From contig JQID01000047.1 in assembly GCA_000770645.1 (NCBI GenBank), positions 1-42,858 on the forward strand: a stretch of 42,858 nt of DNA, given 5' to 3'. The notes below the pieces were generated by a model that worked only from the letters and a program-made list of their open reading frames with translations, did not search any database and was not told the origin of the DNA. The stretch is from Desulfosporosinus sp. Tol-M (GTDB lineage Bacteria; Bacillota; Desulfitobacteriia; Desulfitobacteriales; Desulfitobacteriaceae). This document shows positions 10,191 through 17,645 of this stretch, in pieces (positions within the stretch are counted from its first letter, which is position 1; each line of letters begins with the position of its first letter). A program made the translations under genes and the position numbers.

Positions 10191-10192
<2 letters not shown>
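10166..10192 (-). terminator. Weak hairpin at the pyrG stop
   Basis: AGTGTTACAC (10166-10175) and GTGTCACACT (10183-10192) pair with one mismatch, and the minus-strand sequence after it is T-rich but interrupted. The hairpin overlaps the pyrG stop codon. It may slow or end transcription. Confidence 0.35.
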
Positions 10193-11804
<1,612 letters not shown>

Positions 11805-12062: not shown

Positions 12063-12094
12063 AAATAGAAACCCTGCACCGAGGTGCAGGGTTT
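12063..12094 (-). terminator. Strong terminator of the CoA-transferase/acyl-CoA operon
   Basis: AAACCCTGCACC (12069-12080) and GGTGCAGGGTTT (12083-12094) form a perfect 12-base stem, and the minus strand continues into TTTCTATTTT. It lies 33 bases after the crotonase stop. Confidence 0.9.
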
Positions 12095-12126
12095 ACTCTT
12101 GCGACTCAAAAGTTTAGTCGCTGTCT

Positions 12127-12894
12127 TTATCTACCCTTGTAGACAGGAGGTCTTTTTTCAGCAAAGGCTACGCGTCCTTCAATCCTATCTTCGGTATCAC
12201 GCAATATGCCCCAAAGTAAATATTCCATTTGGGAAGCTTGTTTGACCGGTAAATCTCCTCCGACTACAACAGCCATTTTTGCCGCTTTAACGGATAAAGG
12301 AGCATTAGAGGCAATCTTTTCAGCTATGGCTTTAGCAGTCTCCATTAACTTATCGGCGGGAACAATATCGCTGATTAAACCGACGCGGTAAGCCTCAGCC
12401 GCAGTAATTCTATCAGCTGTCAGGAGCATCCGCATAGCAATGGCCTTCGGGATAAACCTAATTAAGCGCTGGGTACCTCCCAATCCTGGCAAGCTGCCCA
12501 CCTTAACTTCCGCTAGACCGAAAGAAGCCTTTTCCGAGGCAATACGAATATCACAAGCCAAAGCCATCTCCAGCCCGCCACCGATAGCAAAGCCGTTAAT
12601 TGCGCAAATAATCGGCTTCCACATTTCCATTGGCGCCAGCAAATTTTCCTCCTCAAAATAAGTTGAGGCAAAATTAGTTGCCGGCGGCATACTCTTTTTG
12701 AGATCCGATCCGGTACAGAATGCCTTCTCGCCGGCACCTGTCAAAATCAGAACGCGAATTTCCGGATCGACTTTTGCCGACCGAAGGATCTCATGAAATT
12801 CCTTCCAGGAATCAGGGTCTAAGGCATTCAATTGTTCTGGCCTGTTTAACGTAATAGTAGCAACATGTCCTTCTTTGGTAAAAAGCACACCCAT
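12127..12894 (-). CDS. Enoyl-CoA hydratase/isomerase (crotonase) family protein, BbsH-like by context
   Basis: This protein of about 255 residues has the crotonase signatures: the first oxyanion segment AFCTGSDLKK near 61, the second in INGFAIGGGLEMALACDIRIAS near 102, and SLPGLGGTQRL near 137. Numbered from the ATG at 12903, the first catalytic acid is kept (Glu132 in AEVKVG), but the second, which is the Glu of the AMEMVL motif in mitochondrial enoyl-CoA hydratase, is Arg158 (AMRMLLT). It may therefore not be a classical hydratase, or may hydrate an unusual substrate. In context it would act on the product of the adjacent acyl-CoA dehydrogenase. The start is ambiguous: ATG 12903 almost touches GGAG, while ATG 12894 is 10 bases from it. 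It is the last gene of the operon, 33 bases before a strong terminator. Confidence 0.88.
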   Translation of the reverse strand: MGVLFTKEGHVATITLNRPEQLNALDPDSWKEFHEILRSAKVDPEIRVLILTGAGEKAFCTGSDLKKSMPPATNFASTYFEEENLLAPMEMWKPIICAINGFAIGGGLEMALACDIRIASEKASFGLAEVKVGSLPGLGGTQRLIRFIPKAIAMRMLLTADRITAAEAYRVGLISDIVPADKLMETAKAIAEKIASNAPLSVKAAKMAVVVGGDLPVKQASQMEYLLWGILRDTEDRIEGRVAFAEKRPPVYKGR

Positions 12895-12927
12895 TTTGCT
12901 CATACTCCTTTCATTTAGCCAATGAGA

Positions 12928-14124
12928 TTATTTAAATGTCTCGTAGGGTTTACCATCTTTTAATATTTCTCTGGCAAGTAACCACCTATGGATTTCCGAA
13001 GGACCCTCAACAATCCGGAAAATGCGGACTAGACGATAAATATACTCGATGGGCATTTCTTTGGAAAGCCCCAGACCACCGTGAACCTGAATAGCACGGT
13101 CAGCAATTTTGGAAAGCATTTCTGTACAATACACCTTTAACATGGCTGCTTCTTTACGCATATCCTTATGACCCTGATCAACTTTCCATGCAGCATGATA
13201 GACCATGAGACGAGCGGCGTGCAGTTCCATCATTGAGTCTGAGATCCACCACTGGACTGCCTGCCGTTCCGCCAAAGTTTTCCCAAAGGTTACTCTAATG
13301 TTTGCTTGATCGATCATCAGCTGAATGAGACGGTCTGCATAACCACAGCACCGGGCAGCAAGCTCTATTCTCCGTACTCCAAAACGGTTTTGTAACGGAA
13401 TAAAAGCATAACCTACCTCACCTAAGACCTGGCTTGGTTCTAACTCCATGTCTTCAAGAACGAGTTCGTAAGCAAACATATCCCCAATAGTATTAACATT
13501 GCGTTCAATCTTCAATCCAGGTGTTCCTTTATCAACCAAAAATGCTGAAAATCCGCCCTTTTTACCCTTCGCCTTATCATTTATGGCAATCAGGATAAAG
13601 AAATCTACTTTGGGAGCATAACTGATCCAGGCCTTGGTTCCGTTTATAACCCACTTGCCATTTTTAAAATCAGCCCGTGTAGAGATAGCACTGGCGTCCG
13701 ACCCGGCATTCGGCTCCGTCATAGCCAGAGCAGAACGTTTTTTACCTGTGGCATAGGGCACCAGATATTTTTCGTATTGTTCCGGATTGCAGCACTCCTT
13801 TAAGAAATTAAGGTTTGGAGCATCTGGAGGCAAAGTATATTGAACAATTGAGCGGTTCATTTGTTCAACAACAACAATCTTCGCCAAGGCGCCTAGATCT
13901 TGTCCGCCAAATTCTTCGGGAACCTCAAGTCCCCATAAGCCTAATTCCTCAGTTCTCTGCATTAAATGCTTTTCTACTTCCGGTGATATGGAGGGCATAT
14001 CGGTTGTGCCCCTTGCTGACTCACGGTTGATTATTTCCTGTTCTAATGGAAATAACTCACTTTCGACAAATTTACGCACCATCTTTTTTAGTTCTAGATA
14101 CTCGTCTGGTATTTGGAAATCCAT
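12928..14124 (-). CDS. Acyl-CoA dehydrogenase, BbsG-like by context
   Basis: This 398-residue flavoprotein shows the acyl-CoA dehydrogenase layout: an N-terminal helical domain, FAD/substrate motifs ALAMTEPNAGSDAS near 136 and WVINGTKAWISYA near 157, then the C-terminal helical domain. The catalytic base is Glu373 in RIVEGPSEIHR, in the position of the YEG glutamate of medium-chain enzymes. GGGAGGACAAGTAA precedes the ATG. It oxidises an acyl-CoA to the 2,3-enoyl-CoA. Placed between a CoA-transferase pair and a crotonase, the likely substrate is a CoA ester made by that pair. The bbs operon for benzylsuccinate oxidation has this order (BbsG between BbsEF and BbsH). Carnitine- or other dicarboxylate-type substrates cannot be excluded. 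Confidence 0.92.
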   Translation of the reverse strand: MDFQIPDEYLELKKMVRKFVESELFPLEQEIINRESARGTTDMPSISPEVEKHLMQRTEELGLWGLEVPEEFGGQDLGALAKIVVVEQMNRSIVQYTLPPDAPNLNFLKECCNPEQYEKYLVPYATGKKRSALAMTEPNAGSDASAISTRADFKNGKWVINGTKAWISYAPKVDFFILIAINDKAKGKKGGFSAFLVDKGTPGLKIERNVNTIGDMFAYELVLEDMELEPSQVLGEVGYAFIPLQNRFGVRRIELAARCCGYADRLIQLMIDQANIRVTFGKTLAERQAVQWWISDSMMELHAARLMVYHAAWKVDQGHKDMRKEAAMLKVYCTEMLSKIADRAIQVHGGLGLSKEMPIEYIYRLVRIFRIVEGPSEIHRWLLAREILKDGKPYETFK

Positions 14125-14151
14125 TTACTTGTCCTCCCTTATTCTTAGCTC

Positions 14152-15372
14152 TTAACCAATGACTTTTTTTTCCCTGAACTTCGAAATCTCCGCCTCGCTT
14201 AATCCCAGGACTTCCTTCAGAACCTTATCCGTATGCTCCCCCAATAATGGCGCGGATGAATCTAATTGAGCGGGCGTTTTGGACAGATGCGCCGGTGAAA
14301 CATCATATACATGCCTGCGCATTTCCCGATGGTTTAGATATGTCCAAAAACCCCTCTCATTCAGCTGTGGATCTTCCAGCAAATCCTTGGAATTTTGCAC
14401 AACTCCGGCTCTCACCCCAGCCTGGACCAATCGTTCCATTAGATGATAAGCTTTATGTTGTTTAGTCCACTCTTCAATCATCCGATCAAGTTCATCTTGA
14501 TTAGCCAAACGATTAGCCGTAGAAGAGAACTTTTTGCTGTCCGCCCATTCGGGGTTCCCCATCACATTTAGTAAGGCTTCCCATTCCGATTGATTAGAAA
14601 CAGCAATAGCAATCCACCTTCTGTCGCCTTGAGTGGCATAAACCCCATGGGGAGCTACATTTAGGTCACGGTTGCCCAGTCGCTCCTGAACCTTACCATT
14701 TGCCGCATAATTCATGACTGCCGTAGGTAAAACAGCCAAAGTCGCCTCAGTTTGAGAAACATCTACGAACTGGCCCTGACCTGTTTTCCGCCGGTGCAAT
14801 AGAGCTACCATAATAGCAAAAGCAGTATGGACCGGGTTCGGTACATGGTCAGGATAGTTAGTTCCCATGCCAAAAGGTATCTTATCGGGAAAACCGGTGA
14901 GATAATTAATACCCACCAAAGCATTCATGGCTACCCCGAAACCCATATAGCTCTTGTGGGGACCAGTTGAACCCTGAGCAGGCATAGCAACATAAATAAT
15001 ATCAGGTTTTATCTCTTTTACCTCTTCGTAGCCCAGATTCCATTTTTCCATGACCCCCATGGTAAAATTGTTAATGATAATATCACTTTCTTTAATCAGT
15101 TTAACGACTAAGTCCCGTGCTTGAGGTTTTTTCATATTGATATCTATACTTTTTTTGTTAACATTACGATTACTAAAATAACCACTACGCTCAATACCGG
15201 CAATACCGTCTTTATACGGCCCCATCAGACGAAGGATATCTACTCTCGTCTTGCTTTCAAGTCGTATTACATCTGCTCCATATACTGACAATAGCCGGGT
15301 AGTGGACGGGCCGGCGCCAACCCAGGAAAAATCGCAAACCCTGATACCTTCTAAAGGTTGCTTATTTGACAT
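14152..15372 (-). CDS. Class III (CaiB/BaiF) CoA-transferase subunit carrying the catalytic Asp
   Basis: This protein of about 406 residues begins with the family segment LEGIRVCDFSWVGAGPS and GADVIRLES, and contains the RRKTGQGQFVDVSQTEA block. Just before that block NYPDHVPNP carries an Asp (about residue 175) at the position of the catalytic aspartate that forms the acyl anhydride in family III CoA-transferases. An in-frame GTG at 15381 overlaps its own GGGGTG ribosome site, so ATG 15372 is chosen. It overlaps the end of the preceding CoA-transferase gene by 11 bases, so the two are translationally coupled and probably form a heteromer. By order and by retention of the Asp it would match BbsF of succinyl-CoA:benzylsuccinate CoA-transferase. 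That assignment is inference. Confidence 0.9.
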   Translation of the reverse strand: MSNKQPLEGIRVCDFSWVGAGPSTTRLLSVYGADVIRLESKTRVDILRLMGPYKDGIAGIERSGYFSNRNVNKKSIDINMKKPQARDLVVKLIKESDIIINNFTMGVMEKWNLGYEEVKEIKPDIIYVAMPAQGSTGPHKSYMGFGVAMNALVGINYLTGFPDKIPFGMGTNYPDHVPNPVHTAFAIMVALLHRRKTGQGQFVDVSQTEATLAVLPTAVMNYAANGKVQERLGNRDLNVAPHGVYATQGDRRWIAIAVSNQSEWEALLNVMGNPEWADSKKFSSTANRLANQDELDRMIEEWTKQHKAYHLMERLVQAGVRAGVVQNSKDLLEDPQLNERGFWTYLNHREMRRHVYDVSPAHLSKTPAQLDSSAPLLGEHTDKVLKEVLGLSEAEISKFREKKVIG

Positions 15373-16606
15373 AGCTGACACCCCGTTTTACAAAGGATTT
15401 AATATCGTCTGCCGAGTAACCCAAGTGTTTTAACACTTCGGCGGTGTGTTGCCCGAAAGCAGGAGCTCCACTCCTTAATTCCCAAGGTATCTTCTCTAAA
15501 TAGTAAGGAGGCCCTGGATAAGTAATTGTACCGTTCACTGACTCCGAATACATTTCTCTGAAAAAATTTCTATATGAGAATTGAGGATTTTCTAACACGT
15601 CTTTTGGCGTATTAACTGGATAAATCACTACTTTACGCTTCTGACCTTCTTGATAAAGATTTTGTTTAGTGTATTTTGCTAAGAATTGCTCAACAACTGT
15701 TTTAAAATAATTAATTGACTCTTTTTTTTTCCGATGCCCCGGTGTTCCCCATTCTTTGCCCCGTAGAACTTCAGCACCCGGTATTTTTTCTTCAATCATC
15801 CAGTCTACTAAGGGGTACCATAAATAAGCATTGCTTCCCATCGATGCTACGATATATACAAAACCGTCCTGACATTTGTAGGTTCCATTACCAGCTTCCA
15901 CCAAGCCTATTCCGCGGCGAATCCGTCCTTCCAAATCATATCCTTGAATCGCGTTCTCTTGTGCCGTGACAACACTCTCTTGAATGGACACATCAACATA
16001 TTGCCCTTCTGAGGTCATGTCGGCGTTAATTAATGCAACCATACTTCCATAGGCAGCATACAAATCCGCCTGAAAAAAGGATTGTTTATCGGGAGCCAGA
16101 ACCGGCTTCTCGTCCCCATTACCAGCTAGATATAACATACCGCCCATTGCCAAACAAGTCAGGTCAGAAAAAGGATAGTCCTTATACGGACCGAACTGAC
16201 CATAAGGTGTAATAGCAGTATGCACAAGTTTGGGATTAATCACAGAAAGTAATTCATACCCCAAGCCCAGACTTTCAAGATGCCCAGGAGGAAAGCTCTC
16301 AATCAACAAATCGGCTGTTTTTATTAGCTTTAGAAAGACCTCTTTCCCTTCGGGAGATGCTATATCCAGAACAATCCCTTTTTTATTGGTATTTAGATAT
16401 TGATACCTAAGACTGTTTTCTATTCCGGCAACTTCTTTAAAAAAGGGTTTTTCTAACCGAGTAGGATCTCCCTCCATAGGTTCAATACGAATTACGTCGG
16501 CCCCCAGGTCCGCAAAGAGCTTACCCGTATAAGCTCCTAATTCACCCGCAAGTTCGACTATCCGCATGTTATTAATAACGTTCCCCTCCGATATGTTCTT
16601 CTGCAT
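15362..16606 (-). CDS. Class III CoA-transferase-like subunit lacking the catalytic Asp
   Basis: This protein of about 414 residues has the CaiB/BaiF fold signatures (MRIVELAGELGAYTGKLFADLGADVIRIEP near the start, NTNKKGIVLDI near 73, GQYVDVSIQES near 203). Aligned by the ALLHRRKTG-type block with its partner, the catalytic Asp position is Ser179 (in DKQSFFQAD), and the RRKTG loop is replaced by NADMTSEG. It is therefore probably a non-catalytic partner subunit. In the BbsEF heteromer, as I recall, only one subunit keeps the Asp, and this gene lies in the BbsE position. ATG 16606 is chosen, with GGGGGGTG eight bases before it. The SDR remnant ends 24 bases upstream. Confidence 0.88.
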   Translation of the reverse strand: MQKNISEGNVINNMRIVELAGELGAYTGKLFADLGADVIRIEPMEGDPTRLEKPFFKEVAGIENSLRYQYLNTNKKGIVLDIASPEGKEVFLKLIKTADLLIESFPPGHLESLGLGYELLSVINPKLVHTAITPYGQFGPYKDYPFSDLTCLAMGGMLYLAGNGDEKPVLAPDKQSFFQADLYAAYGSMVALINADMTSEGQYVDVSIQESVVTAQENAIQGYDLEGRIRRGIGLVEAGNGTYKCQDGFVYIVASMGSNAYLWYPLVDWMIEEKIPGAEVLRGKEWGTPGHRKKKESINYFKTVVEQFLAKYTKQNLYQEGQKRKVVIYPVNTPKDVLENPQFSYRNFFREMYSESVNGTITYPGPPYYLEKIPWELRSGAPAFGQHTAEVLKHLGYSADDIKSFVKRGVSYVK

Positions 16607-16639
16607 TAGTAGCACACCCCCCCTCGCATGTCTACTTGC

Positions 16640-16918
16640 TTAAGCGATATTAGCAAACAGACTTTTACATCTACAAAAATAAAAAGTCTGTCCGGTAACA
16701 TAGCTCGTATCATCCGAAGCAAAGAACACTGCTACAGGGGCTATATCTTTTGGGGAACTAATTTTGCCTGTGGGTTGTGCTTTTACCACAAGATCTATTT
16801 TTGCCTGGTCGTCATCGATAATAACAACGCTACCTCCTAATTCATTTAGTTTTTTGGCCGCGCCCTCACCGATTCCGCCGCCTGAATCGGCTATCATGGC
16901 CACACGTTTAAAAAGCAC
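16640..16918 (-). pseudogene. Short-chain dehydrogenase/reductase remnant with an internal deletion
   Basis: The frame encodes only about 92 residues. It starts with a Rossmann nucleotide-binding segment (ADSGGGIGEGAAKKL, then VVIIDDDQAKIDL) and jumps directly to the usual SDR C-terminus (TGKISSPKDIAPVAVFFASDD, then SYVTGQTFY). About 150 residues, including the Ser and the YxxxK active site, are missing, yet the frame is preserved. Translation signals are intact: GGAGGTG sits five bases before the GTG at 16918, and a good promoter lies just upstream. It is the first gene of the operon. In bbs operons the SDR genes bbsC/bbsD sit immediately before bbsE, the position seen here. The remnant should be catalytically dead. 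Confidence 0.8.
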
Positions 16919-16941
16919 GCTCCCACCTCCCTCATTGTCCA

Positions 16942-16970
16942 ATTATACTATACTGAATGTGAACTGTAAA
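16942..16970 (-). promoter_or_regulatory. Sigma-A promoter of the CoA-transferase operon
   Basis: TTTACA (16965-16970) and perfect TATAAT (16942-16947) are 17 bases apart on the minus strand, 24 bases before the GTG of the SDR remnant. The promoter is intact although the first gene is broken. Confidence 0.75.
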
Positions 16971-17130: not shown

Positions 17131-17547
17131 CTACCATTTTTCTCCGTGCTGACCCTCATCCGTCTCATCAAAAACTTCATCTGTTTCCAAGATATCTTCA
17201 TCTAAAGCATCTAAGGCATCTTCATCCAATTCTTCCGGATCTGATTTATCTTCCTCCTCAGATGATGCTTTGTTCATCATGGAGACAGGCACCAGCCGCC
17301 TTGGAATTTTAGCGGGCTCCCATACCTTCAGACCCCATTCACCCCGTCCGAGGAACGAAAATCGAGTGTCCAGGTTGATCTGGGTGAGTGCCGCCGCAAT
17401 CCGAATGGCCTCCTGGGAAATATCCAAGCGCCGGAGTACTTCTTCGATTAAGTTATGATAATGCATGGGGTTCCCATGAGCTTTCAGTACCTCATAAGCT
17501 ATATCTGCTTCTGTTGGCTTATCTTTTCTGGTTAAAGAGTGGGTCAC
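17131..17547 (-). CDS. rpoE: DNA-directed RNA polymerase delta subunit
   Basis: This 138-residue protein has the two-part delta layout: an N-terminal HARE-HTH winged-helix domain (ADIAYEVLKAHGNPMHYHNLIEEV, ALTQINLDTRFSFLGRGEWGLKVWEP) and a very acidic, disordered C-terminal tail with repeated Asp/Glu. Delta increases RNA polymerase recycling and selectivity in Firmicutes. The start is set at GTG 17547 because the conserved MTHSLTRKDKPTEADIAY begins there, with GGTGGAG upstream. A longer frame opens at TTG 17580. The order argS-rpoE-(pyrG nearby) is usual in this group, though here a five-gene catabolic operon separates rpoE from pyrG. Confidence 0.92.
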   Translation of the reverse strand: MTHSLTRKDKPTEADIAYEVLKAHGNPMHYHNLIEEVLRRLDISQEAIRIAAALTQINLDTRFSFLGRGEWGLKVWEPAKIPRRLVPVSMMNKASSEEEDKSDPEELDEDALDALDEDILETDEVFDETDEGQHGEKW

Positions 17548-17645
17548 AGCTCCACCGCCCTTCGTCGTTTTGAATATCAATATATTCGGCCCACCCCTAA
17601 ATATTTCCTGCTTGTCGTTTCTTTAAACATAAAAAAATTTCCAAG

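Follow-up and report, generated by a model that had tools for sequence, protein, structure and literature searches.

A reduced bbs-type operon of Desulfosporosinus sp. Tol-M as the probable source of the BbsG and BbsH steps of toluene degradation

A bbs-type operon of Desulfosporosinus sp. Tol-M is probably the remnant of a second fumarate-adduct cluster and, as predicted from sequence, would supply the dehydrogenase BbsG and the hydratase BbsH in trans to the toluene cluster on another contig (C26). The operon lies on the minus strand (12127-16942) of a contig stretch of 42,858 nucleotides, hereafter the window, in which open reading frames and Pfam domains delineate what is left of bbsD and, after it, bbsE, bbsF, bbsG, and bbsH at full length. 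C26 is without exactly G and H, and the intact bbs genes in the window are precisely E, F, G, and H. In the bbs pathway, BbsEF activates benzylsuccinate, BbsG dehydrogenates and BbsH hydrates the CoA-ester, BbsCD oxidises, and BbsAB cleaves to yield benzoyl-CoA (PMC10818641). Tol-M is a methanogenic toluene degrader that was found by 13C-toluene DNA-SIP and whose published draft of about 3.0 Mb in 206 scaffolds names only bssABC and bbsBDEF, which left the dehydrogenase and hydratase steps without genes (PMC4299902). Because the draft genome stems from 13C-toluene-labelled DNA, something must carry out these two middle steps, and since 13C from toluene was taken up, the best candidates are the genes in the window. 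An earlier note on this DNA had invoked sulfate-reducing relatives; that description is off for Tol-M itself, for which dsrAB is reported missing (PMC4299902).

Organization of the operon

The gene order, an SDR remnant, CaiB-1, CaiB-2, an acyl-CoA dehydrogenase, and a crotonase, equals bbsD-E-F-G-H (Table 1), and the earlier proposal of an operon of this type is borne out by the order itself, by PDB matches, and by phylogenetic trees. bbsE and bbsF encode family III CoA-transferases and overlap by 20 bases; together with bbsG and bbsH they span 4.4 kb in which none of the four frames is interrupted by a stop or frameshift. The SDR had correctly been called broken: the bbsD relic joins the N-terminal 46 to the C-terminal 47 codons across an in-frame internal deletion of 471 bp (157 codons), whose junction near 16784 preserves the frame. 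Of bbsC only the tail is left, starting 88 bases beyond the end of the rpoE-type gene, so that the window operon holds no intact BbsCD alcohol dehydrogenase; it contains neither a BbsAB thiolase nor a synthase.

Table 1. Positions of the operon genes, gene relics, putative signals, and flanking genes in the window
Feature	Position	Strand	Remarks
pyrG, downstream flanking gene	10191..11798	-	ORF; flanks the cluster in G027 (L043) too
Intrinsic-terminator-like hairpin 3' of bbsH	12069..12094	-	11 pairs
bbsH-type enoyl-CoA hydratase (benzylidenesuccinyl-CoA hydratase)	12127..12903	-	258 aa, intact; Pfam ECH_1
bbsG-type acyl-CoA dehydrogenase (benzylsuccinyl-CoA dehydrogenase)	12928..14124	-	398 aa, intact; acyl-CoA dehydrogenase domains
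bbsF, benzylsuccinate CoA-transferase subunit (CaiB-2)	14152..15381	-	409 aa, intact
bbsE, benzylsuccinate CoA-transferase subunit (CaiB-1)	15362..16615	-	417 aa, intact
bbsD relic (SDR remnant)	16640..16942	-	100-aa ORF; aligned with bbsD of L039 and L043
Promoter-like site TTTACA-N17-TATAAT	16942..16970	-	in bbsC/bbsD junction debris
bbsC relic, last ~31 codons	16951..17043	-	internal stop; tblastn with bbsC of L039, L043, and C26
rpoE-type (RNA polymerase delta-like) upstream flanking gene	17131..17580	-	ORF; at deletion edge

Assignment of the window proteins to the Bbs families

The two CoA-transferase subunits match the solved benzylsuccinate CoA-transferase (PDB 9fn0, chains A and B) best. 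The bbsF product reaches 430 bits with 9fn0_B (next entry 204) and the bbsE product 360 bits with 9fn0_A (next entry 134). In maximum-likelihood trees, E falls into the BbsE clade (support 100/100), F into the separate BbsF clade (100/99), and H into the BbsH clade (100/100). G belongs to a 14-row BbsG group apart from other dehydrogenases, although this fork is less firm (87/95). These clades include proven as well as presumed toluene degraders. Among the named genomes scanned, bbs operons were detected in Aromatoleum buckelii, Desulfosarcina widdelii, D. cetonica, NaphS2, Desulfobulbus sp. Tol-SR, Peptococcaceae BRH_c4a, and others. The identity of G is based on such named operons: it is 54-57% identical to BbsG of the proteobacterial ones and at most 36% to other dehydrogenases of the same genome. 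H is 56-63% identical to BbsH of the named proteobacterial operons. PDB entry 7p98 had been considered as a BbsG structure and was dropped, as it is merely one among many dehydrogenases at ~160 bits.

Conserved residues were also inspected. Asp178-His179, invariant across all BbsF, is kept in window F, both crotonase glutamates (E112 and E132) are conserved in H, and E373 is kept in G; we take these residues to be catalytic. Departures from residues that are invariant in all other Bbs proteins number 0 in F, 1 in E, 2 in H, and 4 in G.

An ordinary carnitine, bile-acid, or oxalate/formyl-CoA operon that acquired a bbs-like order by chance would show the same Pfam families. However, match scores and trees rule out a grouping with CaiB, BaiF, or Frc and assign each of the four proteins to a Bbs clade, and none of the curated NCBIfam models for carnitine, bile-acid, or formyl-CoA enzymes reaches its cut-off on the window proteins, so that this explanation is extremely improbable. 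The phylogeny that the earlier note had proposed as a check on the CoA-transferases and the dehydrogenase accordingly came out on the Bbs side. Family membership of E, F, G, and H confirms, at the level of sequence, a bbs-type operon for benzylsuccinate β-oxidation, and the enzymes are predicted to act on benzylsuccinate and benzylsuccinyl-CoA.

The toluene cluster on contig C26

The assembly is a metagenome bin of 3,035,900 bases in 206 contigs with an estimated contamination of 8.27%. Contig C26 carries bssA, a bssB-like gene (80 aa), AAA and VWA genes, bssD, and bbsA-B-C-D-E-F, including an intact bbsD. The absence of a thiolase and a synthase stated in the earlier note thus holds for the window operon and does not extend to the genome, where a search for bssABC, bbsAB, and an intact SDR led to bssA, bssB, bssD, and bbsA-F on C26. 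The bssA product (862 aa, 1501 bits to TutD) is the only fumarate-adding glycyl radical enzyme in the assembly. The E and F proteins of C26 belong to the same pathway as the window pair and share just 51-55% identity with it.

C26 encodes neither G nor H: the gap between bssD and bbsA is continuous without N, and tblastn detected no relics of bbsG or bbsH in it. On contig C17, which overlaps C26, G and H are missing at the same place, bbsC is intact, and bbsAB are present. Among the 206 contigs, no further BbsG-like dehydrogenase was found: the best remaining ones reach 36% and 29%, and one of them scores as glutaryl-CoA dehydrogenase type, below the cut-off. Likewise, no other BbsH-like hydratase was found on these contigs, the best one (42%) being of short-chain enoyl-CoA hydratase type and part of an hbd-crt-thl operon. 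bbsG and bbsH are hence single copies in the assembly, both in the window, as read directly from its sequence. One housekeeping gene each of C26 and the window contig has the same three nearest relatives and no second close copy, and the two contigs appear to belong to one species.

We considered whether assembly or binning created the C26 gap artificially, such that bbsG and bbsH really lie in the bss cluster, with the window operon as an additional copy. The genome is a draft metagenome bin, in which a second copy of bbsG or bbsH may have been missed given the contamination estimate and the number of contigs; C26 and C17 differ in bbsC, that is, by micro-variation or an assembly error in the same region; and Desulfosporosinus sp. 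BRH_c37 has G and H at the corresponding place. Against this, two contigs cross the gap without N, the housekeeping genes of C26 and the window contig agree in their relatives, and no further BbsG- or BbsH-like gene occurs on any contig. We regard the artefact as very unlikely.

The two versions of the toluene cluster, C17 (L138) and C26 (L036), are 99.95% identical over bbsA-D and differ by one 198-bp piece of bbsC, which is strain variation or an assembly fault inside the cluster. The bbsC of C26 had at first seemed truncated; as the intact C17 version differs from it by this piece, no claim is drawn from it.

Relatives and history of the locus

BRH_c37 (G014) possesses both clusters. Gene for gene, its copy 1 (L040) shares 68-88% identity with C26, and it has G and H between bssD and bbsA. 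In copy 2 (L039, contig C242), A-H precede a fumarase-like gene and a different synthase with its activase. The window E-F-G-H genes are orthologous to those of copy 2, with 84-87% identity, and 81-88% identical across copy 2, copy 3, and a further relative (G027). In the latter, an orthologous A-H cluster (L043) lies directly before pyrG, the neighbour shared with the window. Whereas these A-H clusters are complete, with synthase and activase in BRH_c37, the window locus is cut on both sides: it is without everything before the last 31 codons of bbsC, the 157 bbsD codons, and the fumarase-like gene after bbsH. The same homologous genes occur in the same order, with agreeing trees, in the bbsABCDEFGH operons of the toluene degraders Thauera, Aromatoleum, and Geobacter metallireducens. 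Unlike these, the window operon has no A, B, or C, retains D as a relic, and is not linked to a synthase, the missing steps being encoded on another contig.

These comparisons suggest that a complete second bss/bbs-type cluster once lay between rpoE and pyrG. It would have lost the synthase genes, bbsA and bbsB, almost the whole of bbsC, the central part of bbsD, and the fumarase-like gene after bbsH, while bbsE, bbsF, bbsG, and bbsH were retained and are now probably transcribed from a promoter born in the debris. The bracketing of the genes by a putative promoter and terminator, already described in the earlier note, was recovered. The strong promoter-like site has 11 of 12 matches, as opposed to 8-9 of 12 at best at the homologous positions of relatives. 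Its -35 element is part of the former bbsC coding end; where the -10 element sits, TGTGAT is found in BRH_c37 copy 3 and a short deletion in G027. Across both strands of the whole window, a score of 11 of 12 is attained at only three sites, one being that of the operon and another lying just upstream of pyrG, and the overall count of promoter-like sites in the region equals the shuffled expectation. The terminator-like hairpin is not found at the homologous place in relatives. The simplest reading would be that the promoter newly arose in the debris once the native one was cut off.

The sequences bordering the gap on C26 align with those on either side of the G-H block in BRH_c37, a pattern in which deletion and insertion are indistinguishable. 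Two readings stand, namely that C26 lost G and H or that its lineage never had them. G and H of BRH_c37 copy 1 are 72 and 76% identical to those of the window, compared to 53 and 55% for E and F; such unusual closeness of G and H to the cluster-2 type, with E and F far, would fit a later insertion. In UBA7919 and UBA4049 (L057, L055), a bbs cluster with its own synthase is likewise without G and H, which lie on another contig, and sharing of G and H in trans may therefore recur across genomes. The G and H of UBA7919 differ from those of the window in being part of a complete A-H operon rather than of a remnant.

Several further rearrangements were seen in the relatives. BRH_c37 harbours four BssA-like synthases and three bbs copies (L039, L040, L161, L162; contigs C242, C288, C58, C205), and in its copy 3 (L038) most of bbsD is gone, with breakpoints that differ from those of the window. 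In G027 (C24), bbsE is broken by a ~120 bp frameshift/deletion (L043:7593-8748), and F, G, and H are intact. In a genome of the same order (G039, 99% complete), all of bbsA-H are present along with an MFS-type transporter and sigma-54-type regulators (L044, G039:C8:18001-38000); a fumarate-adding glycyl radical enzyme was not found in this genome at E<=1e-100, and the organism is possibly a user of benzylsuccinate made by others.

The operon might also serve another arylalkylsuccinate, for example from xylene or cresol, provided by a second synthase or by uptake. The full-length relative indeed has a different synthase, 63-64% identical to BssA of C26, and the bbsA-H set of G039, for which no synthase was found, indicates that adduct uptake by some bacteria may occur. 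The Tol-M assembly, however, has just the one glycyl radical enzyme of this kind, BssA, and offers no support for the other succinate-type adduct considered in the earlier note. In addition, a window locus that lacks its own thiolase and SDR needs bbsA-D of C26 in any case, which counts against this reading. Overall, service to another adduct is unlikely.

Selection on the relic and the retained genes

Selection was assessed with codon models on the window, BRH_c37 copy 2, and G027, with omega estimated for the window branch. When the distant outgroup G039 was included, the fits suffered from saturation and gave unstable results for bbsE; those without it were used. The bbsD relic, which is short (93 codons), has an omega of 0.997 on the window branch (background 0.108). 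The values of the retained genes are 0.267 for E, 0.162 for F, 0.204 for G, and 0.142 for H, and omega = 1 is rejected for each of them (2dlnL of 16, 46, 50, and 44, respectively). Where the two relatives agree, amino acids changed on the window branch at 27% of relic positions versus 8, 7, 12, and 10% in E, F, G, and H (Fisher p 0.00001 to 0.0014). Over roughly the entire branch, the relic has evolved neutrally and the four retained genes were constrained, and the locus is not simply decaying.

The reading of the operon as non-functional and in the course of being lost, as suggested before by the words "may be decaying", is in line with the pseudogenes of bbsD and bbsC and with the loss of the synthase genes of the locus. 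Moreover, omega is raised in all four genes and most in bbsE, for which the estimate depends on rooting and model (0.27 to above 1). Compared with the background, G and H show a 2-4 fold increase, compatible with relaxed selection and also with adaptation. That bbsE is the least constrained of the four is to be expected if the function of its E/F pair overlaps with that of the C26 pair. On the other hand, purifying selection acts on E, F, G, and H next to a relic at neutrality, the four frames are open over their whole length, and Bbs-invariant residues are nearly all kept. Disintegration of the operon as a whole is consequently quite unlikely.

A toluene pathway completed from two loci

In the pathway that we propose, the BssA cluster on C26 would produce (R)-benzylsuccinate, which would be activated by BbsEF from C26, the window, or both. 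Window BbsG would then catalyse the oxidation and window BbsH the hydration step, before BbsCD and BbsAB from C26 complete the conversion to benzoyl-CoA. Expression, enzyme activity, and cooperation with C26 in trans are what we infer from gene content, selection, and physiology. The stricter version, an obligate hybrid in which both paralogous clusters lost genes, the toluene pathway is complete only as their sum, and the E-F-G-H remnant was rescued by a promoter born in its own pseudogene debris and now provides the other cluster with BbsG and BbsH, is put forward tentatively, its probability being slightly less than even. The kinds of genes involved are already known, and the split of the pathway over two reduced paralogous clusters is new.

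With the window genes, the upper part of toluene degradation would be complete in this syntrophic bacterium of the Peptococcaceae. The case also illustrates that annotation cluster by cluster can mislabel a working pathway as incomplete or a working remnant as decayed. A neutral relic beside constrained genes provides both an internal clock and a control for the rescue of a partial operon.

As a further observation on C26, a 1417-aa protein is encoded beside the bss cluster (L037:5034-9287). By eye, it resembles a 2-hydroxyacyl-CoA dehydratase activator fusion, and it adjoins a sigma-54-type regulator.
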